Positions 18,115 to 29,425 of a stretch of DNA of 64,000 bases are shown here, in pieces. The stretch covers positions 1 to 64,000 of the forward strand of contig JAFGCX010000035.1 in the NCBI GenBank assembly GCA_016932415.1, given 5' to 3'. A program made the translations under genes and the position numbers. The stretch comes from Candidatus Krumholzibacteriota bacterium. Lineage in GTDB: Bacteria > Krumholzibacteriota > Krumholzibacteriia > Krumholzibacteriales > Krumholzibacteriaceae. The notes beneath the pieces are model-generated. The model saw only the letters and a program-made list of their open reading frames with translations. It searched no databases and was not told the DNA's origin. How positions within the stretch are numbered: position 1 is the first letter of the stretch; every line of letters starts with the position of its first letter.

Positions 18115-19401
18115 ATGGCTGATAAGTCGTTTAATGCCTTTGAAATGGCGCAATCGCAGTTTGACAATGTGGCCAATATTCTGGATCTCGATGAAGGTAC
18201 AAGGGATCTGCTTCGTTTTAACCAGAGAGAGTACCATGTGAGCATCCCCGTTCGCATGGATGATGGAAGCTTTAAAGTATTCAGGGGTTTCAGAGTTCAG
18301 CACAATGATTCCAGAGGTCCGGCAAAGGGTGGAATACGTTTTCATCCGATGGAAACAATAGATACTGTGAGAGCCCTTGCCATGTGGATGACATGGAAGT
18401 GTGCCGTAGTGGATATTCCTCTGGGAGGAGCCAAGGGTGGAGTGATATGTGATCCGCATAATCTCAGCGCCCGGGAACAGGAAGGCATATGCCGAGGGTG
18501 GATCCGTCAGCTCTCGAGGGATGTGGGACCTCTAAACGATGTTCCAGCGCCGGATGTAATGACATCACCACAGCATATGTTATGGATGCTTGATGAATTT
18601 GAAACCATCAGGGGGGCTAAATACCCGGGATTTATTACTGGAAAACCTGTGGGGATGGGAGGCTCGCTTGGCAGGACAGAGGCGACCGGGTATGGAGTAG
18701 TATTCAATATTCGTGAGGCTCTCAAGGAGTTGAACATCTCCCCCGCTGATACGACAGCGAGCGTTCAGGGTTTCGGTAATGTCGCCCAGTACGCTGTCGA
18801 GCTTTACACAGAGATATGGGGAAAAGTCATCTGCATATCCTGCTGGGACCAGAAAGACCAGGTCTCTTACAGTTTTAAAAAAGCTGATGGGATCGATCTG
18901 AAGGAACTAAAAAATATTACGGACAGATTCGGTGGAGTTGACAAGAAGAAAGCCGAAAGTCTGGGATATGAGATTCTTCCTGGTGGCGCCTGGATCGAGC
19001 AGGAAGTCGATATTCTGATTCCGGCAGCTCTCGAAAACCAGATTACGATGGAGAATGTCGGTAAAATCAGTGATAAGGTGAAGATTATTGCCGAGGGCGC
19101 GAATGGACCGACGACACCTGGAGCAGATAAAGAGATTGCCAAGCGCGGCATTTTCATGATTCCTGATCTTCTGGCGAATGCCGGTGGCGTAACCTGCAGT
19201 TATTTTGAACAGGTCCAATGCAACATGAACTATTTCTGGGAGAAAGACGAAGTTCTTGGTAAGCTTGACACGAAAATAACAAACGCATTCAACGCCGTCA
19301 ATGAAATGGCAAAATCCCGAAAGCTGTATATGCGCGACGCGGCTTATGTCATAGCCGTGGGACGCGTGGTTGAAGCGTGCAGGGAACGTGGCTGGATCTG
19401 A
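18115..19401 (+). CDS. Glutamate dehydrogenase (Glu/Leu/Phe/Val dehydrogenase family)
   Basis: 428 aa with the ribosome site AGGAGG. It converts glutamate to 2-oxoglutarate and ammonium, or the reverse, with NAD(P). Family motifs are complete: PAKGGIRFHP with K71, WKCAVVDIPLGGAKGGV with the catalytic K107, APDVMTSPQHMLWMLDEF, the Rossmann start SVQGFGNVAQYA (about 220), IIAEGANGPTTP, and GGVTCSYFEQVQ near the end. Length and order match hexameric bacterial/archaeal GDH (about 420 aa). Coenzyme choice cannot be decided. It has its own promoter and stands 230 bases before the two ATP-grasp genes. Confidence 0.92.
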   Translation: MADKSFNAFEMAQSQFDNVANILDLDEGTRDLLRFNQREYHVSIPVRMDDGSFKVFRGFRVQHNDSRGPAKGGIRFHPMETIDTVRALAMWMTWKCAVVDIPLGGAKGGVICDPHNLSAREQEGICRGWIRQLSRDVGPLNDVPAPDVMTSPQHMLWMLDEFETIRGAKYPGFITGKPVGMGGSLGRTEATGYGVVFNIREALKELNISPADTTASVQGFGNVAQYAVELYTEIWGKVICISCWDQKDQVSYSFKKADGIDLKELKNITDRFGGVDKKKAESLGYEILPGGAWIEQEVDILIPAALENQITMENVGKISDKVKIIAEGANGPTTPGADKEIAKRGIFMIPDLLANAGGVTCSYFEQVQCNMNYFWEKDEVLGKLDTKITNAFNAVNEMAKSRKLYMRDAAYVIAVGRVVEACRERGWI

Positions 19402-19633
19402 TGGTAGAAAGAGATTAAAACCGGCATTCAACAGGAAATTTGATTCAGGACTGAAACGAAATCAGGCTTATCGTTTTGCCAGGGTTTGCCGTTGGTGATT
19501 CGATGGGATATTTATACTGGATATAGAGACTCACGAACGTGGGCCGGTGGGTATTTAATTACGATTTTCCTCCCGGGTTGACGGGAAACCCCGGTATACG
19601 CTGAGAGTATCTTCCTGCGAGAGGTGTTCGCTG

Positions 19634-21400
19634 ATGGCCAGGAAAAGATACAGTCCTCACAAAGGTTCACTTGTTCCGTTCGACCGCACTTTATTTTCAA
19701 ACAAACATAAATTTACATATATCGGAAAGGGGGAAATCGGTGGCAAGGCCCACGGATTGGCCGAGTTCAAAGGTATTATTGAATCGGGGGTCTTCGACAG
19801 GTTTTCTCCGGATATTTCTGTAACGATACCCGCGTTAACGGTTATTACTACCGAATATTTCGATCAGTTCATCAGGCAGAATGACCTCAAAGAGATAGCG
19901 TTTTCAAGCGCGAGAGATGATTTGATCGCCAATACCTTTCTGCAGGCCAGGCTTCCGGTTCAGCTGCTTGGAGATCTGAGGTCGCTGGTTCAGCAGGTCC
20001 ATACGCCTCTGGCGGTGCGTTCTTCGAGTATGTTGGAGGATGCCATGTTTGAACCGTTCGCAAGCGTGTACGGGACAAAAATGATACCGAATAATCAGCC
20101 GGGCGTGGACTCAAGATTCCATAAACTTGTCGAAGCGATAAAATATGTCTATGCTTCGACCTTTTTCAAAGCCGCGGCAAATTACATGAAAGCTACTCAT
20201 CACACCCTTCATGACGAGAAAATGGCTGTCATCATCCAGGAAGTCATTGGGACAAGGTTTGGGGAGCGATTCTATCCACATATATCAGGCGTAGTGCGTT
20301 CATACAATTTTTATCCATACGGAAACGCCGAGCCGGAAGAAGGTGTGGTGGATCTGGCCCTGGGAATGGGGAGAACTATAGTAGATGAAGGAACAGCCTG
20401 GTCGTATTCGCCAGCTTATCCTAAAACCGGCCCGCCGTTTAATTCTGTAAACGATATGATGAAAAGTTCCCAGACAAAATTCTGGGCTGTGAACATGCAG
20501 GCTCCGGGCAGGTACAATCCGGTGGATGAAGTCGAATATATGGAAAAATACGACCTTACCGCAGCGGAATATGATGGTTCCTTAAGTTACATAGCTTCAA
20601 CACTGGATTTACAGGATGGAAGAATTACATCCGGCACTGGTATCACGGGCCCAAGAATCCTCGATTTCGCGCCGATTCTCAAATCAAAAATGATACCACT
20701 GAACGAGCTTCTGGAAACGCTTCTCAAGATAAGCGAAGATCGGCTCGGTATGAGAGTCGAGATCGAATTCGCTTTGCGACTGGACAGGATGGACTGTTCT
20801 CCTGCCGATTTTGGTTTTCTTCAGATCAGGCCGATGGTTGTATCCGACACTGAGGTTGAATTGAACCAGAGTGAACTGATCGGAGATGGGGTTCTCGTCT
20901 CGTCAGAGACAGTACTTGGAAACGGGATCCTGGATACTATAAGAGATATCGTTTACATAGACCCCGATCGGTTCGATGTAAGCAACTCGAGGGAAATCGC
21001 CGGGCAACTGGATAAATTCAACGAAATTCTTGTTGATTCAAAAAAACCCTATCTTCTCATAGGCTTCGGCAGGTTGGGAACATCGGATCCTTCATGTGGA
21101 GTGCCAGTTACGTTCGATCAGATATCCGGGGCAAAAGCGATAATCGAATCCTCACTTCCAGATCTGGCTTTCAATCTAAGCCAGGGATCGCATTTCTTTC
21201 ATAATGTTACAAGTTTCAGGATTTTTTATTTTTCTGTAAATCACTGGAGCGAGTATGGTATTGACTGGGACTGGTTGAAGAAACAGAAAGTGATCAGAGA
21301 GACGGAGTTCCTGAAACATGTTGAGCTTCCTTCTGCTTTACTGGTCAAGGTGGACGGACGGAAGGGCAGGGGAGTCATATTTTATGAGCGAAAAAAATAA
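19634..21400 (+). CDS. PEP/pyruvate-binding (PPDK_N, ATP-grasp) protein without swivel or PEP domain
   Basis: 588 aa. The N-terminal half resembles the ATP-binding domain of pyruvate phosphate dikinase: GGKAHGL (35-41), LAVRSSSMLEDA (about 125-136), MAVIIQEVIGTRFG, VRSYNFYPYG and FGFLQIRPMVV (about 395-405). In PPDK the equivalent Lys and Arg bind ATP. The phosphohistidine segment (GGxTSHAA) and TIM barrel are absent. A C-terminal domain (about 430-545) with VYIDPDRF, GFGRLGTSDP and GSHFFHNV is shared with the next protein. No signal peptide. It overlaps the next gene by 17 bases, so the two products are probably made together and may form a complex. Confidence 0.8.
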   Translation: MARKRYSPHKGSLVPFDRTLFSNKHKFTYIGKGEIGGKAHGLAEFKGIIESGVFDRFSPDISVTIPALTVITTEYFDQFIRQNDLKEIAFSSARDDLIANTFLQARLPVQLLGDLRSLVQQVHTPLAVRSSSMLEDAMFEPFASVYGTKMIPNNQPGVDSRFHKLVEAIKYVYASTFFKAAANYMKATHHTLHDEKMAVIIQEVIGTRFGERFYPHISGVVRSYNFYPYGNAEPEEGVVDLALGMGRTIVDEGTAWSYSPAYPKTGPPFNSVNDMMKSSQTKFWAVNMQAPGRYNPVDEVEYMEKYDLTAAEYDGSLSYIASTLDLQDGRITSGTGITGPRILDFAPILKSKMIPLNELLETLLKISEDRLGMRVEIEFALRLDRMDCSPADFGFLQIRPMVVSDTEVELNQSELIGDGVLVSSETVLGNGILDTIRDIVYIDPDRFDVSNSREIAGQLDKFNEILVDSKKPYLLIGFGRLGTSDPSCGVPVTFDQISGAKAIIESSLPDLAFNLSQGSHFFHNVTSFRIFYFSVNHWSEYGIDWDWLKKQKVIRETEFLKHVELPSALLVKVDGRKGRGVIFYERKK

Positions 21401-24400
21401 TATTACAGACGATCTGATCAAATCTTTCCTTGAAAGGGAAAAGGAACTGAAATGTCTTTACAGGATCGAGGAGATCCTCAAACAGTCTGATAAAGATCAG
21501 GATCAGATTTACAGCAGGATCCTCGACGCCGTTCCGCCGGGGTTACAGTATCCGGATATTTGTAAAGCCAAAATAACGCTCGGAACGAAGATATTCGAAC
21601 CTTACAGGTTTGTGGAGACGGAGTGGGTTTTAAAAGCTGATATTCTGGTCCAGGAAAAGAAGGCTGGAGAAATCAGTGTCTATTATTCAAGGGAAATGCC
21701 TCCGGAAGATGAGGGTCCTTTTCTTAAACATGAGAAAAGGTTGCTTGAAGCGATAGCGGACCGGCTCGGCAGTTCGATTCTTCACCAAAACCTCAAGGAT
21801 GCGGAAGAAGAGTCCGGAACCGATCATGGAGATGAATCCCACGAATGGAACGTCGTACTCAACCTCCTGCGCCATACTGACAGAAACTTGTTTATAAGCC
21901 TTTCGGAGAGGATGCTGAATCATCTCAGCTGGACCGGATTATCAGAAATAGAGGATATCCCTCTGATATCAAAGAAAAACAGATTGGATGGGGCCGCTGA
22001 TCTGGACAGGGAAAGCAACAAACCTCACATGAGAGAGAGATCTGAACTTTCAGACGCCAATTGCGAACAGATATTCAAGGTTGCAGCCAAACACTATACT
22101 GATGAGAAGATCCTCGATTATCTGCAGAAATGGATAGCGGATGATAAATTGAAATACCTGGTGCACGTAGCTAACCGCAACCTTACTCTTGCCGAGATCA
22201 TTTCGGCAGTAAGGAGATATAGGGATATCGCGCATGAGGGTATCGATCTATCTCCCGTCGCGAGAAAAGGTGTTATCGTATCTTTGATAAGAAGGTTTTT
22301 TTCAAGCCAGCTGAACTACATTCGATTGGCCAAGAATTACGTCAGAAACAATGACTTCTTTGATATCATCGACAGAATAGTTTTTACAAGGGACAGTCAC
22401 GGCAGGCTGGGAGGAAAAAACGCCGGCCTATTCCTGGCGGAAGCTATAATAAAGAAATCCAATGATTCCAACGATCTGTTGAGAGCGGTGAAATTTCCCA
22501 GGAGCTGGCACGTCACATCCGATGTCATCCTGGGATTCCTGAAGTACAACAATATGGATGAGGTGGTCGAACAGAAATACAAGGAAATAAACCAGATTCG
22601 GCAGGAATATCCATATGTCATCCGGACCTTTAAAAACGGGCAGTTTCCGCCGGAAGTCGTTCAGGGTCTTTCGATGGTTCTCGACGAATTCGATGAAAAA
22701 CCGCTTATAGTAAGAAGTTCGAGCCTTCTCGAAGACAGCCTTGGCGCGGCCTTTTCCGGCAAGTACAAGAGTCTTTTTCTGGCGAACCAGGGAAGCAAGC
22801 AGCAGAGGCTGGAAGCGCTCATGGACGCGATCGCGGAAGTCTATTCATCGGTATTCGGCCCCGACCCGATACAGTACAGGGCTGAAAGGAATCTTCTCGA
22901 TTTTGCCGAAGAGATGGGAATCATTATCCAGGAGGTCGTTGGAAGGCGGATCGGCGATTATTATTTACCGGCTTTCGCCGGGGTGGCTTTCAGCAGGAAC
23001 GACTTCAGGTGGTCTCCAAGAATAAAAAGGGAAGATGGATTGATGCGTCTCGTTCCCGGACTCGGAACAAGAGCCGTGGACAGGATAAGCGAGGATTATC
23101 CGATCCTTATCGCTCCCGGGCAGCCAGGGCTCAGGGTCAACGTGACGGCGGAGGAAATCGTCTATTATTCTCCGAAAAAGATAGATGTTATAAATTTAAA
23201 GACAAATTCCTTCGAAACGATCGATATAAAGGAACTGTTGAAGAAGCATGGCGCTGAACTGCCGCTCGTAAATAAAATAGTATCAAAATTTGAAGATGAT
23301 CATCTGAAAAAACCTATGGCAATGAATGTCGATTTTGCCAGGGATGATCTTGCGGTTACGTTTGAAGGAATAATCAATGATTCCGACCTGATAAACCAGG
23401 TCAATGGGCTTCTAAAGCTTCTGGAAAACAAGATGGAATCATCCGTCGATATAGAGTTCGCTCATGACGGCGAAAATTTTTATCTTCTTCAATGCAGGCC
23501 CCAGAGTTTCAATGTGGACAGCGCGCCGGTGGCGATACCAAAGGATGTACGGAGTGATAGAGTAATATTCTCAGCTCATAAGTATGTTTCGAACGGCCGC
23601 GTTCCCGATCTCACTCACATCGTTTATGTGGATCCACAGAAGTATTCAGAACTTGGCAGGAGGGAAGATCTGGTCAAGGTTGGAAGAGCTGTCGGGGAAC
23701 TGAACAAGCTTTTACCAAAGCGTCAATTCATTCTCATGGGTCCCGGCCGCTGGGGGAGCCGTGGAGATATCAAGCTTGGCGTCAGTGTCTCCTATTCAGA
23801 TATTAACAACACGGCAGTGCTTGTGGAGATAGCCAAGAAGAAGGGCAACTATATGCCGGACCTTTCATTCGGCACGCATTTCTTCCAGGATCTGGTCGAA
23901 GGGCAGATCCGCTATCTTCCGCTCTACCCTGACAACGCGAAAAACGCTTTTAACGAAAAATTTCTGCTTGGTTCGAAAAATATACTTGGAGATATGTTGC
24001 CGAAGTATTCATCGCTTTCCGATGTAATCCGTCTTATTGATATTCCGGAAGTGACCGGCGGTCTTGTTTTCAGGGTCCTGATGAACGCTGATCTGGGCGA
24101 AGCTCTGGGTATTCTTGACGAACCGGGAAAAGAAGCAGACACGGATGACCGAGAGATCGTTAACTATGAGATTCCTACTGAAAAGTACTGGTTGTGGCGG
24201 CTTCGCATGGCTGAACAGATAGCGTCAGAGCTGGATCCGAACCGTTTCGGAGTCGCCGGTTTCTATGTCTTTGGAAGCACGAAGAACGCTACCGCGGGAT
24301 TGAAGAGTGACATCGACATATTGATTCATTTCAGGGGAAATAAAAATCAGCGAGGGGATCTTACCGCATGGCTGGAAGGTTGGAGCCTGTGCCTGGATGA

Positions 24401-24554
24401 AATCAATTATTTGAAGACCGGTTACAGGATCGGAGGATTGCTCGACGTCCATATAATTACCGATGATGACATCCGTAACAAAACGAGCTATGCCGTCAAG
24501 ATAGGGGCGATCACTGATGCTGCCAGAGAGATACCCCTCAAAGGGAAAGACTAG
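21384..24554 (+). CDS. Sensor-like/PPDK_N/nucleotidyltransferase fusion protein
   Basis: 1056 aa from the ATG at 21384, which has GGGGAG upstream and overlaps the previous gene. Order: a GAF-like sensor region (about 15-140); a helical region (about 155-330); a PPDK_N ATP-grasp domain with LGGKNAGLF (341-349), VRSSSLLEDSLGAAFSG (about 442), IIQEVVG and LLQCRPQS; then the domain shared with the upstream protein (about 720-860) with VYVDPQKY, GPGRWGSRGD (785) and GTHFFQDL (829). It ends in a polymerase-beta-type nucleotidyltransferase (about 945-1056): VFGSTKN...SDIDILI with a third acid in LLDVHII. No phosphohistidine or PEP site is visible. An ATP-dependent, regulated nucleotidyl or phosphoryl transfer is inferred; substrate unknown. 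Confidence 0.8.
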   Translation: MSEKNNITDDLIKSFLEREKELKCLYRIEEILKQSDKDQDQIYSRILDAVPPGLQYPDICKAKITLGTKIFEPYRFVETEWVLKADILVQEKKAGEISVYYSREMPPEDEGPFLKHEKRLLEAIADRLGSSILHQNLKDAEEESGTDHGDESHEWNVVLNLLRHTDRNLFISLSERMLNHLSWTGLSEIEDIPLISKKNRLDGAADLDRESNKPHMRERSELSDANCEQIFKVAAKHYTDEKILDYLQKWIADDKLKYLVHVANRNLTLAEIISAVRRYRDIAHEGIDLSPVARKGVIVSLIRRFFSSQLNYIRLAKNYVRNNDFFDIIDRIVFTRDSHGRLGGKNAGLFLAEAIIKKSNDSNDLLRAVKFPRSWHVTSDVILGFLKYNNMDEVVEQKYKEINQIRQEYPYVIRTFKNGQFPPEVVQGLSMVLDEFDEKPLIVRSSSLLEDSLGAAFSGKYKSLFLANQGSKQQRLEALMDAIAEVYSSVFGPDPIQYRAERNLLDFAEEMGIIIQEVVGRRIGDYYLPAFAGVAFSRNDFRWSPRIKREDGLMRLVPGLGTRAVDRISEDYPILIAPGQPGLRVNVTAEEIVYYSPKKIDVINLKTNSFETIDIKELLKKHGAELPLVNKIVSKFEDDHLKKPMAMNVDFARDDLAVTFEGIINDSDLINQVNGLLKLLENKMESSVDIEFAHDGENFYLLQCRPQSFNVDSAPVAIPKDVRSDRVIFSAHKYVSNGRVPDLTHIVYVDPQKYSELGRREDLVKVGRAVGELNKLLPKRQFILMGPGRWGSRGDIKLGVSVSYSDINNTAVLVEIAKKKGNYMPDLSFGTHFFQDLVEGQIRYLPLYPDNAKNAFNEKFLLGSKNILGDMLPKYSSLSDVIRLIDIPEVTGGLVFRVLMNADLGEALGILDEPGKEADTDDREIVNYEIPTEKYWLWRLRMAEQIASELDPNRFGVAGFYVFGSTKNATAGLKSDIDILIHFRGNKNQRGDLTAWLEGWSLCLDEINYLKTGYRIGGLLDVHIITDDDIRNKTSYAVKIGAITDAAREIPLKGKD

Positions 24555-24556
24555 TC

Positions 24557-25423
24557 TTATACAAGTTCACGGCTGATCTCTTCGATATTTTCCAGGTCGA
24601 ATCTTACAAGCGCGAGTTCCGGCCCGTCATGAGCTGCTGATACGGCGAGAGTCCTTCCGATGTGACATTTCCAGGAACCGGTGATCCTGGCTGATTCGTG
24701 AATATGGCCGTGCATCGTCAGAAAAGGTTGCTTGTTCTCGATGAACCTTTTAATGGCGATACTACCGACATTGACATCGAGTGGAGCGTGATCGACTTTG
24801 ATGCCGTCCAGTGCCGCGCGGTCGAGGTCTGTCTGATAGGGTGGAGAGTGAAACAGGATAATGGCATCGTTCAGTTCAAGGTCGCCGCTCAACCTGTCCA
24901 GGTCAGCCTTTATAGTTCCGAACTTCAGGTTATCCGGTTTTTCGGGCACAGAGCGGGTTCCTTCTTCAGGAGAGATACAACCTGGATCGACATATCTTGA
25001 CACGTCATATTTTTCCCAATCCTTGAGCAGAAATGGAGTCGGTGGGACAAAAGAGTATCCAAAGATCATTCTCCCTTTACAGGTCGTTATTTTCTCATGG
25101 ATATAATCAATAGTGCCTTTTTCTGTCGCCTCTATCATCGTAGCTTCATCAGAACGCCCGTCATCGTTACCCAGGATCATGAAGATCTTCGGATACGATT
25201 TGCCGAGGTCATTGCGCAACTTTTCAAGCTCCTTAAGTAAGTATCCGTTAATAAAACCTTCAGGGCCGAATTCATCGCTCCAGGCATGAGGGAGTATGTC
25301 ACCACCGATAAATACAACCGAAGGGTGTTCTTTTTTTATGGCATCGAACAGTTTCCCGAACCTGTCGATTTTACCGTGAAGGTCGGAGACGAAAAAACAT
25401 TTTAAATTTTGATCCTCACTCAT
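24557..25423 (-). CDS. Metallophosphoesterase (calcineurin-like)
   Basis: 288 aa from the ATG at 25423, which has AAGGA 7 bases upstream. All five metal-binding blocks are present: SDLHGK (about 12-17), GGDILPHAW (about 38-46), GNDDGR (about 86-91), LFHSPPYQT (about 205-213) and HGHIHE (about 239-244). It is a cytoplasmic phosphohydrolase of broad family; substrates could be nucleotides, phosphodiesters or phosphoproteins. It converges on the ATP-grasp/nucleotidyltransferase genes with only 2 bases between stops, so a functional link is possible but not shown. Confidence 0.85.
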   Translation of the reverse strand: MSEDQNLKCFFVSDLHGKIDRFGKLFDAIKKEHPSVVFIGGDILPHAWSDEFGPEGFINGYLLKELEKLRNDLGKSYPKIFMILGNDDGRSDEATMIEATEKGTIDYIHEKITTCKGRMIFGYSFVPPTPFLLKDWEKYDVSRYVDPGCISPEEGTRSVPEKPDNLKFGTIKADLDRLSGDLELNDAIILFHSPPYQTDLDRAALDGIKVDHAPLDVNVGSIAIKRFIENKQPFLTMHGHIHESARITGSWKCHIGRTLAVSAAHDGPELALVRFDLENIEEISRELV

Positions 25424-25435
25424 CCGTAAATCCTT

Positions 25436-25460
25436 GCCAGGCAGAAACAGACTGCCTGGC
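25436..25460 (-). promoter_or_regulatory. 9-bp leader hairpin next to the metallophosphoesterase ribosome site
   Basis: GCCAGGCAG (25436-25444) and CTGCCTGGC (25452-25460) form a perfect 9-bp stem with a 7-base loop. On the minus strand it ends exactly where the AAGGA ribosome site begins. The placement suggests control of translation start or a protein-binding site. Confidence 0.45.
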
Positions 25461-25843
25461 GCGATTGAAATCATCAGACGCGCGGGTTTCCGCAGCGCAT
25501 GGTCTTGCCAAGTATATCCCGATATAATGACATTACATAATATAAAGCAATTTCAACCCGTGCAACGCACAAAACCGTATTTTGTGGACATCGATATTTG
25601 GGATATGATAACATGCGCTACCACTAAATCACTTATGCCCGTCTTCGCGTGGTGAATGCCTTTTCCCAAAGGGCAGCAAAGAGGGGTAGATCGACAGGGG
25701 CTGCACAGGAGAAAGGAGACCATTACCGGCCGTTTTCAGTTGCGCAGGCACATAAATGCCGTACTTCCCACCAGTCAGATGCCCCGGGAGTACTCCCCGA
25801 AAAGTATTTCCAGGGTCAGCGACACAAACGGTTAGGAGTGAAA
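25461..25843. other. Gene-free gap between divergent genes
   Basis: No credible gene lies here. An AT-rich island at 25500-25555 includes TATAAT (25523-25528) with a weak TGGTCT 17 bases upstream, a possible promoter for the S8 peptidase gene. The rest would be a leader of about 300 bases for that gene; I do not recognise a riboswitch class in it. Confidence 0.4.
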
Positions 25844-28800
25844 ATGACAAAAAGATCGATACTTGTATCAATCTGTCTGTTACTGATTTTGATGCCTCTC
25901 TCAAGCGTCCAGTCAGCCGCGCCGCGACAATTCTCTCCGGTGCAGAAAGGTTATGTGGGATCGGCAGAATCGGTCCTTCCATACGCCCCCAACCGGATAC
26001 TGATTAAATTCACCGATTCAAGTTACAGGACTTCCAAGCTGAACATCAATCTCGACAGGGGCGCGACTCCCATCGATGAGATGACAGGTCTCGCGTCGGT
26101 CGACGCGATAAGCCGCGATCTGGGCGTCCTCAAGATATCGAGGCCATACATAGAGCCAAAGAACAGGATCCTCTCTGTTCAGCTCGGAGTCGACAGGTGG
26201 TTCCGGGTAGACCTGCCGAATGGCGTTGATATCGAGGATGTTGTTGCGCGATACGCCGCCGACCCCAATATAGAATACGCAAAGCCCGACTATCGGGCTT
26301 TCCCGGCCGCCGTGCCAGGCGATCCCCTCTACGCCGACCACTGGGGACATAATAACACGGCGCAGCTTCCCGATCTCGACTGGGGAGGCACCTACAGCCA
26401 TACGCTGCCGAACACAGTCGGGACCCCCGGTTTCGACGCCAACGCCCAGGGAGCGTGGGACGGAAGCCAGGGATTCGGAAGTTCCAGCATTATCATAGCC
26501 ATCATTGATTCAGGAGTCGATATCGATCATCCCGACCTTAACCTGGTCAGCGGATATGATTTCGGCGATAACGACAGCAATCCCGACGACAATTCCGCGG
26601 CGCCCGGGCATGGGACCTGCTGCGCCGGTGTCGCCGCGTCTCTGGCCAATAACGGCCGGGGCGCATGCGGAGCGGCGCCAGGATGCAGGATCATGCCGGT
26701 CAAGGTGGCCAACAGCGCCGGTTCGATGTACTTCTCATCGATTGAGAACGGCCTTTACTGGGCCGCAGATAACGGCGCGGATGTTATAAGTATCAGCCTT
26801 GGCGCTCCTATCAGCAGTGATCCCGCCACAGACGCTGCCATCGCCTACGCGTACAACTCAGGATGCGTCATAGTGGCGGCGACAGGTAACGAGAACGACA
26901 ACGCGATCAGTTACCCGGCCATCAATGCCTATGTTGTCGGTGTAGGGGCAGCTTCGCCATGCGGCGACCGCAAGCGATCGAGTAGCAGCAGCACTGAGTG
27001 CAACCCCGGCGTCAACACCGATCCGAACGGTTATACATGCGATGGTGAGCGCTGGTGGGGGTCTAACTACGGAACAACCGTGAAAGACGCCGCCGGCGCG
27101 GTCGATATACTCGGCCCGACGATCCTTCCGACGACTGATATCGGCGGAAGCGGGGGATATACCAGCGGAGACTACGATCCGTTCTTCAACGGAACATCGT
27201 GCGCCACTCCTTACGTCGCGGGAGTCGCCGCCCTGGTAAAATCGAAGAACCCTGCCTGGACGGCTGCCCAGATCCGCGACCAGATCTGCGATACGGCGAT
27301 CGATATAGTCAATGTCGAATCAGGCAGCGGTTGGGACCGTTACAGTGGATACGGTATGGTAGACGCTGAAGCGGCAGTCGGTGGAGGAGGACCGGTCGCT
27401 CCGGTCGCCGAGTTCTATGGCACTCCTACCAGTGGAACGGAACCTCTGACTGTGAACTTCACCGATCAGTCGACAGGCGCGCCTACCAGCTGGGCGTGGA
27501 GTTTCGGCGACGGCGGTACTTCGACGGCGCAGAATCCGAACCATACATATAACAATGACGGTAGTTACACGGTGACTCTGACCGTCACGAATTCGGTCGG
27601 TTCCGACGCTGAGACAAAAAGCGGATACATCACGGTAAGTCCCTGCGTAGCCCCTGTCGCCGCTTTTACCGGCTCGCCGACATCGGGAGACGCGCCTCTC
27701 GCGGTCAGCTTCACCGACCAGTCGACCGGGGCGGCCTCCTGGTCGTGGACTTTCGGTGACGGCGGCACATCGACCGCGCAGAATCCATCCCACACCTATA
27801 CTTCCGAAGGAACGTACACTGTCTCGCTGACTGTTGTGAACTCCTGCGGCAGCGACGGTGAGACGAAAAGCGGCTATATTACAGTGACCGAGGCTGTCGG
27901 CGGCTGGGAAGTCATCACCTACGACGATTTCGAAGGCGGATTCGGTAACTATACTTCCGGCGGAGGAGATTGTTCCCTCTATACGTCAGGCACTTATGCT
28001 CATCAGGGGAGCAACGCCGCCGATATCCAGGATAACAGTGGAGTAGCTTCGTCGTTCTATCATACGGCCAGTTACAACGTGTCCGGATATACAAGTCTTG
28101 AAGTCGATTTCTGGTTCTACGCCTACAGCATGGACAACACGAGCGAGGACTTCTGGGTGCAGTACTTCGACGGATCGACATGGCGTACCGTTGCTACGTA
28201 CGCAAGGACGACCGATTTCGAAAACGGTGTTTTCTATCACAAGGTCGTTCAGATCCCCGCCAGCACTTATAATTACCCTGCGAACGCGAAGCTCCGGTTC
28301 ATGTGCGACGCGAGCGGTAACGCAGACGACGTCTTTATCGATGAAGTCGAGTTCAGAGGCTTCGGCACTGGTGGCGGATCTGTCGCTCCCGTGGCTGCGT
28401 TCACCGGAACACCTACTACCGGTGATTATCCACTGGAAGTGACATTCACCGATCAGTCGGAGAATGATCCGGAAAGCTGGTCGTGGGCGTTCGGCGACGG
28501 CGGGACTTCGACCGCTCAGAATCCGACCCACACATACACAGCTGCCGGGACATATACGGTGACACTGACTGCAGCCAACACGGCAGGTTCCGATGATGAG
28601 GTAAAAACAGGGTACATCACAGTGACCGAACCGTCGGCGGGAGGCTGGACGACGATCACTTACGACGACTTCGAAGGCGGATTCGGCAGCTACACCGATG
28701 GCGGAGGAGACTGTTCGCTGTACGCTTATGGCACTTACGCGCATCAGGGGAGCCGAGCGGCCGATATCCAGGACAACAGCGGTACGGCTTCTTCGTTCTA

Positions 28801-29425
28801 TCACACAGCCAGTTACAATGTTTCCGGGTATTCGAATCTCGAGGTCGAGTTCTGGTTCATGGCGGTAAGCATGGACAGGAGCGAAGACTTCTGGGTCCAG
28901 TACTTCGATGGATCGGCATGGCGGACCGTCGCCAGTTACACCAGTTCGACCGATTACGACAATGGCATCTTCTACAACAAGGTAGTTCAGATCCCGGCCG
29001 GGACGTATAACTACCCGACGAACGCGAAGATACGTTTCATGTGCGACGCGAGCAACAACACCGATGATGTCTATATCGACGAGATCGAGTTCAGAGGGTA
29101 CAGCGGTGGAGCGATGGCTTCCGGGGCGATAGCCCAGGTGGAGACTGGGTCTGATATTCCGGAGGCCTTCAAAGTCTGCCAGAACTATCCGAACCCGTTC
29201 AACCCGGTAACCACGATAAGGTTCGAACTTCCGAAGGAAGGGTACATGAGGCTGGATATATTCAACGTAGCCGGCCAGCGGGTAGCGAATCTTGTCAGCA
29301 GGAATATGGATGCCGGAGTGCATGAGATCCCGTGGAACGCGGCGGGCCAGGCATCAGGCGTCTATTTCTACAGGATCATGTACGGTGACAAGAGAGTGAC
29401 GAAGAAGATGATCCTTCTCAGATGA
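25844..29425 (+). CDS. Subtilisin-like (S8) secreted protease with PKD and jelly-roll repeats and C-terminal sorting domain
   Basis: 1193 aa from the ATG at 25844 behind TTAGGAG. A signal peptide (cleavage near VQSA) and an inhibitor-like propeptide (about 30-140; NRILIKFTD, DPNIEYAKPDY) precede the S8 domain. The triad is D222 (IIDSGVDIDHPDL), H256 (GHGTCCAGV) and S452 (GTSCATPYVAG). After it come PKD1 (about 518-600), PKD2 (about 602-680), jelly-roll 1 (about 685-845), PKD3 (about 847-928) and jelly-roll 2 (about 930-1088). The end is a FlgD-Ig-like sorting domain with QNYPNPFNPVTTIRFELP and a KKMILLR terminus, as in type IX-like cargo. It is expected to be secreted and cut for activation. 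Confidence 0.93.
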   Translation: MTKRSILVSICLLLILMPLSSVQSAAPRQFSPVQKGYVGSAESVLPYAPNRILIKFTDSSYRTSKLNINLDRGATPIDEMTGLASVDAISRDLGVLKISRPYIEPKNRILSVQLGVDRWFRVDLPNGVDIEDVVARYAADPNIEYAKPDYRAFPAAVPGDPLYADHWGHNNTAQLPDLDWGGTYSHTLPNTVGTPGFDANAQGAWDGSQGFGSSSIIIAIIDSGVDIDHPDLNLVSGYDFGDNDSNPDDNSAAPGHGTCCAGVAASLANNGRGACGAAPGCRIMPVKVANSAGSMYFSSIENGLYWAADNGADVISISLGAPISSDPATDAAIAYAYNSGCVIVAATGNENDNAISYPAINAYVVGVGAASPCGDRKRSSSSSTECNPGVNTDPNGYTCDGERWWGSNYGTTVKDAAGAVDILGPTILPTTDIGGSGGYTSGDYDPFFNGTSCATPYVAGVAALVKSKNPAWTAAQIRDQICDTAIDIVNVESGSGWDRYSGYGMVDAEAAVGGGGPVAPVAEFYGTPTSGTEPLTVNFTDQSTGAPTSWAWSFGDGGTSTAQNPNHTYNNDGSYTVTLTVTNSVGSDAETKSGYITVSPCVAPVAAFTGSPTSGDAPLAVSFTDQSTGAASWSWTFGDGGTSTAQNPSHTYTSEGTYTVSLTVVNSCGSDGETKSGYITVTEAVGGWEVITYDDFEGGFGNYTSGGGDCSLYTSGTYAHQGSNAADIQDNSGVASSFYHTASYNVSGYTSLEVDFWFYAYSMDNTSEDFWVQYFDGSTWRTVATYARTTDFENGVFYHKVVQIPASTYNYPANAKLRFMCDASGNADDVFIDEVEFRGFGTGGGSVAPVAAFTGTPTTGDYPLEVTFTDQSENDPESWSWAFGDGGTSTAQNPTHTYTAAGTYTVTLTAANTAGSDDEVKTGYITVTEPSAGGWTTITYDDFEGGFGSYTDGGGDCSLYAYGTYAHQGSRAADIQDNSGTASSFYHTASYNVSGYSNLEVEFWFMAVSMDRSEDFWVQYFDGSAWRTVASYTSSTDYDNGIFYNKVVQIPAGTYNYPTNAKIRFMCDASNNTDDVYIDEIEFRGYSGGAMASGAIAQVETGSDIPEAFKVCQNYPNPFNPVTTIRFELPKEGYMRLDIFNVAGQRVANLVSRNMDAGVHEIPWNAAGQASGVYFYRIMYGDKRVTKKMILLR
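27895..29105 (+). repeat. Internal duplication of a PKD/jelly-roll unit in the S8 protease gene
   Basis: The segments 27895-28370 and 28640-29105 encode two near-identical domains (TYDDFEGGFG...SLY, SSFYHTASYNVSGY, EDFWVQYFDGS, RFMCDAS, IDE(V/I)EFRG) and are also clearly similar at the DNA level. A PKD domain lies between them (28381-28630). This is a candidate site for recombination-driven copy change. Confidence 0.85.

Follow-up and report, generated by a model that had tools for sequence, protein, structure and literature searches.

The window (64,000 nucleotides of a contig from a Candidatus Krumholzibacteriota bacterium) contains a gene for glutamate dehydrogenase (GDH1), followed on the same strand by two genes for proteins with a PPDK-type ATP-grasp domain (PPDK_N), here called small and large, and by a convergent gene for a calcineurin-like metallophosphoesterase (Table 1). 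The two PPDK_N frames and their 17-bp overlap, described in an earlier sequence-only reading of the locus, were confirmed. The nearest solved structure to GDH1 was GDH 1euz (E 2e-118), and one homolog of the metallophosphoesterase matched PF00149 (E 2.7e-8). The large gene lies in an open reading frame spanning 21318-24554; the ATG at 21384 was taken as its start, giving a protein of 1056 aa, and this choice was backed by alignment of the N-terminus with that of an 85%-identical ortholog. Elsewhere in the window, reading by eye of the forward strand at 25649-29425 gave a subtilisin-like protease that has PKD-type repeats and ends in a sorting-like tail (NPFNPVTTIRFELP...).

Table 1. Genes, domains and selected codons of the GDH1 locus, in window coordinates
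Feature	Position	Strand	Evidence
GDH1 (glutamate dehydrogenase, 428 aa)	18115..19401	+	ELFV_dehydrog E 1.7e-67, ELFV_dehydrog_N 8.9e-53
Small PPDK_N protein (588 aa)	19634..21400	+	PPDK_N E 2.9e-34
ATP-grasp (PPDK_N) domain of small	19733..20863	+	Pfam PPDK_N residues 34-410
Shared unnamed C-terminal domain in small	20864..21397	+	GFGRLG 477-482, SQGSHFF 516-522
His520 codon of small	21191-21193	+	in SQGSHFF
Overlap of small stop and large start, 17 bp	21384..21400	+	
Large PPDK_N-nucleotidyltransferase protein (1056 aa)	21384..24554	+	PPDK_N E 2.7e-58
N-terminal sensor-like domain of large, residues 10-140	21411..21803	+	without Pfam name
ATP-grasp (PPDK_N) domain of large	22404..23549	+	Pfam PPDK_N residues 341-722
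Shared unnamed C-terminal domain in large	23556..24128	+	GPGRWGSRGD 786-795, SFGTHFFQD 828-836
His832 codon of large	23877-23879	+	in SFGTHFFQD
Nucleotidyltransferase (MNT-like) domain of large, residues 933-1056	24180..24551	+	NTP_transf_2 E 8.8e-7
Calcineurin-like metallophosphoesterase, convergent neighbour	24557..25474	-	weak Metallophos_2 and PRK09453 matches

ATP-grasp residues were assigned by motif, with the PPDK of the same genome set beside both proteins. The reference residues, which we take to be K22, R92, D321, E323, Q335 and R337 in Clostridium symbiosum PPDK numbering, correspond to K38, R129, E376, E378, Q397 and R399 in small and to K345, R444, D689, E691, Q703 and R705 in large. 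All six were invariant in 50/50 small and 76/76 large homologs, which bears out the earlier statement that the ATP-binding motifs are kept. For the AlphaFold2 models of small (pLDDT 88.2, pTM 0.87) and large (pLDDT 82.0, pTM 0.65), the best PDB folds in Foldseek were rifampin phosphotransferase (RPH-Lm), PEP synthase, HpeI and PPDK, with matches that mainly cover the ATP-grasp; phmmer searches of the PDB with the single sequences gave no or weak matches.

Pfam searches of small and large found neither a PF00391 swivel nor a PEP-binding domain, nor a PEP/pyruvate-binding barrel, and the chains end in a shared C-terminal domain or in the nucleotidyltransferase. Among the 50 homologs of small, no swivel or PEP domain was matched at E<=10 either, and a swivel HMM run over all ORFs of the fetched neighbourhood loci gave no match. 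The genome has only two PF00391 matches, both on other contigs and one of them in a 920-aa PPDK. The earlier claim that the swivel and PEP domains are absent thus stands insofar as profile searches recognise none in or near the genes; however, the swivel's place is held in both proteins by a conserved domain, missed in that reading, whose invariant His lies at a helix start. That the proteins do without a phosphohistidine step therefore does not follow.

The replacing domains of small and large are homologous (hhalign E 4e-22), had no Pfam match in either protein or in 50 small homologs, and recur in a third, receiver-fused paralog. In all three, this GRWG...[ST]HFF domain occupies the usual swivel position after the ATP-grasp and has a common core of NG, N, GxGRWG, D, G, E, SxGxHFF and Y. 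R480/R789, E505/E815 and H520/H832 (small/large) are invariant among the respective homologs, and in large R789, D795, E815 and H832 are so in 76/76; in the AlphaFold2 model of large, a helix begins at T831, beside His832. The domain may be a strongly diverged swivel in which the histidine of the [ST]H motif (His520/His832) accepts phosphate from the ATP-grasp, which would bring phosphohistidine chemistry with it, and we put this at a little under even odds. Its place directly after the ATP-grasp, the invariant His at a helix start in both models, the agreeing order of secondary structure and a terminal VDGRxGRGVI strand pair argue for such an origin, as does a Foldseek alignment to PEP synthase 2ols that spans 593 columns with a query TM-score of 0.44, versus 0.37-0.38 to the isolated ATP-binding domain. 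Profile comparison argues against it: hhalign with genome-derived swivel profiles was non-significant (E 0.075-0.45) with disagreeing registers, one of which puts GRWGS, not His, on the TSH site, so that homology by this route was rejected, and the lack of PF00391 across the small homologs points the same way. The diverged-swivel reading is separate from, and compatible with, both of the enzymatic functions weighed below, regulator and metabolite enzyme.

Beyond PPDK_N, which had been correctly described in both proteins, large has two further domains that the earlier reading overlooked. Regions similar to its N-terminal ~140 residues occur in further proteins of related genomes, and since one is found in a PAS/HisKA/HATPase/receiver protein encoded in the same genome as large (L151:2781-6155), a sensor role is likely. 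The C-terminus scored 29.7 bits against PF01909 (cut-off 21), and its Foldseek matches were MNT antitoxin, 2rff and AAD(9), with probabilities of 0.97-1.0 yet E-values of 0.03-0.2. Catalytic positions are kept almost throughout the 76 homologs (G964 76/76, S965 75/76, D976 74/76, D978 72/76, D1021 76/76), and the domain combines the GS...DxD...D motif with the fold of MNT/NTP_transf_2 nucleotidyltransferases.

The gene-neighbourhood analysis covered 80 loci from a scan of genome contigs. Their record titles, which for metagenome bins may mislead, name more than 10 (about a dozen) phyla: Krumholzibacteriota, Zixibacteria, Acidobacteriota/Aminicenantes, Bacteroidota/Ignavibacteria, Calditrichota, Gemmatimonadetes, Planctomycetota, Eisenbacteria, Delongbacteria, Cloacimonadota, Spirochaetes, Myxococcales, Verrucomicrobia and others. 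In 54 loci the sequence reaches 3.6 kb or more upstream of large, and 53/54 of these have GDH within 7 kb on that side, so that a link to GDH, previously offered as a possibility, proved very strong. The small gene lay upstream of large in 40 of the same 54 loci, and the metallophosphoesterase lay downstream in 40 of the 59 loci with at least 1 kb on that side. Overlap of small and large, estimated at 1-20 bp, was kept in 40/52 homologous loci, which supports the translational coupling of the two genes. In loci without small, however, large directly follows GDH, and whole-genome searches found no small-like gene in ten large-bearing genomes (loci L041, L046, L049, L055, L060, L086, L092, L099, L102 and L104), in three of which (L041, L060 and L092) large was the only family member matched. 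The pair is therefore common but not obligatory.

Presence and absence across 39 genomes of the class, the window's included, followed the same association: 25 had GDH1 and large, none had GDH1 alone, three had large alone and 11 had neither (Fisher p 2e-7, uncorrected for phylogeny and with related genomes non-independent). Two of the three genomes with large alone are fragmented assemblies and one is rearranged. When operon GDH1 sequences were compared with five other GDH paralogs, 19 alignment columns were conserved only in the former. One of them, Tyr285 (window 18967-18969), is present in 58/59 operon GDHs and is Ala in the five other paralogs from the same genomes, and is a possible candidate modification site. 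As a marker of such a site the operon-specific columns are unconvincing, as lineage alone can account for them.

Some loci departed from the common layout. One genome (G036) appears to have a large gene split by rearrangement or assembly error, with the N-terminal half behind small at 1.73 Mb (L146) and the C-terminal half fused to a MASE1-PAS-SpoIIE frame at 4.11 Mb, then GDH2 and a phosphoesterase (L147). A second large-like copy with one in-frame stop lies opposite the first in another (G026:C99:14158-16290, reverse strand), and L040 has another GDH type downstream of the phosphoesterase, with a GDH2-like gene and a partial receiver paralog upstream of the module.

The third paralog in the window's genome (988 aa; G000:C26, L107:8103-11069) carries two Response_reg stretches, a DUF5752 match, PPDK_N and the shared C-terminal domain, and is without the nucleotidyltransferase. 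By eye, its first receiver lacks the usual phospho-acceptor Asp (VILTMRI), while the second keeps it (VISDVRF). In 15/27 genomes of other groups, coordinates placed the receiver paralog no more than 2 kb from a second GDH (33-37% identity to GDH1). In 10/11 class relatives outside the window's family the two lie side by side, within about 3 kb, and several of these arrangements were confirmed as loci; in the window's genome the two are on different contigs. At L152, GDH1, small, large, phosphoesterase, paralog, GDH2 and paralog follow one another within 15 kb. The strongest argument for GDH as the common theme is that two paralogous PPDK_N types each adjoin a different GDH.

We propose, at a probability of roughly 0.45, that the genes at 18115-25474 form a GDH control module in which large, driven by ATP and regulated by a signal, modifies GDH as its dedicated target. 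Such a module would probably modify GDH covalently, much as GlnE/GlnD or MntA act on their targets; MntA is a precedent for adenylylation of a partner, and RPH for a change of acceptor among PPDK_N enzymes. The N-terminal domain of large would sense a signal, its PPDK-type ATP-grasp would split ATP, the shared GRWG...[ST]HFF domain would receive or position the activated phosphate, and the MNT-like C-terminal domain would transfer a nucleotide. The likely target would be GDH itself, through AMPylation and/or phosphorylation, with small as an auxiliary ATP-grasp subunit and the metallophosphoesterase as a candidate eraser. The proposal builds directly on the domain composition, the retained catalytic residues and the conserved tie to GDH that both paralogous forms display; from these we infer that GDH is the substrate, how it is modified and that the phosphoesterase acts as eraser. 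Regulation is suggested because sensor-like and receiver input domains occur on family members. That the phosphoesterase and small are not universal counts against the modifier reading. Moreover, the common function may not need the nucleotidyltransferase, because a few homologs have other residues in place of D976/D978 and the domain is absent from the receiver paralog. In its widest form, which we hold tentatively, the proposal extends to widespread GDH-specific regulators of the PPDK ATP-grasp type that transfer phosphoryl or nucleotidyl groups to GDH via a new GRWG/[ST]HFF acceptor domain, in two paralogous forms, each with its own GDH.

The gene association could also fit an enzyme acting on a metabolite of the GDH reaction instead of GDH. 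The ATP-grasp and C-terminal domain would then phosphorylate or adenylylate a GDH-linked small molecule (glutamate, 2-oxoglutarate, a nucleotide or a second messenger), and the phosphoesterase would hydrolyse the product. PPDK_N relatives use small molecules (PEP synthase, PPDK and rifampin phosphotransferase; PMC4844700), RPH-Lm and PEP synthase are the closest folds, and the invariant R/D/E/H cluster of the C-terminal domain would suit such chemistry. We nevertheless consider a metabolic enzyme less likely, as different family members bear sensor-like or receiver domains, a sign of regulation, and the association is with GDH itself, the second GDH type included, and not with a pathway. Even less probable is a non-catalytic, energy-sensing scaffold, in which ATP/ADP binding to the PPDK_N domains alters their binding to GDH and gates it allosterically: the fixed gene association and sensor-like domains would agree with this, but the six invariant ATP-grasp residues and the nearly intact nucleotidyltransferase site argue for catalysis. 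Remnant PEP synthase genes lying by chance beside GDH without a common role, for which PPDK_N homology and nothing further speaks, are contradicted by the 53/54 GDH adjacency, the conserved overlaps and the invariant residues, and are most improbable.

No published account of this architecture, or of GDH with such neighbours, was found in the open-access papers searched. The individual domains are known except for one that has no name; what is new is their combination and a tie to GDH that is highly conserved yet undescribed. GDH connects carbon and nitrogen metabolism, and a dedicated GDH-modifying system across many phyla, if true, would fill a substantial gap in textbook nitrogen control, with a role comparable to that of glutamine synthetase adenylylation, and would show the PPDK ATP-grasp in a new use. 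With so few genes, the set lends itself to direct tests with recombinant proteins.

Among known systems, PPDK and PEP synthase have in common with small and large an ATP-grasp in which the six catalytic residues (K, R, D/E, E, Q, R) are all present. They combine PPDK_N with PEP-utilizers and PEP-binding barrel domains, whereas small and large lack a PF00391 match and a PEP/pyruvate barrel and have the GRWG/[ST]HFF domain, to which large adds sensor-like and nucleotidyltransferase domains. Rifampin phosphotransferase (RPH-Lm, 5hv1/5fbs), the best Foldseek match of both models over the ATP-grasp, is a PPDK_N enzyme that has come to use an acceptor other than pyruvate, but its rifampin-binding domain and canonical swivel His825 (PMC4844700) were not recognised in small or large, which scored 16.0 and 28.8 bits against the family model NF041857 (cut-off 999). 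MntA, an MNT-domain protein that adenylylates its partner protein (PMC7641770), resembles the C-terminal domain of large in fold and catalytic motif. In large, however, the MNT-like domain is fused to ATP-grasp and sensor-like parts, and the partner gene is GDH, not a HEPN toxin; the type VII toxin-antitoxin MntA family NF047752 gave 17.1 bits against a cut-off of 60, and GDH is the conserved neighbour. GlnE and GlnD exert nucleotidyltransferase-based control over glutamine synthetase and PII. Their families gave no Pfam/NCBIfam match at E<=1, the sequence relation being limited to the nucleotidyltransferase superfamily, and they differ from large in its ATP-grasp and in GDH as the proposed target; they serve as a working analogy in that a nucleotidyltransferase governs a central enzyme of nitrogen metabolism.
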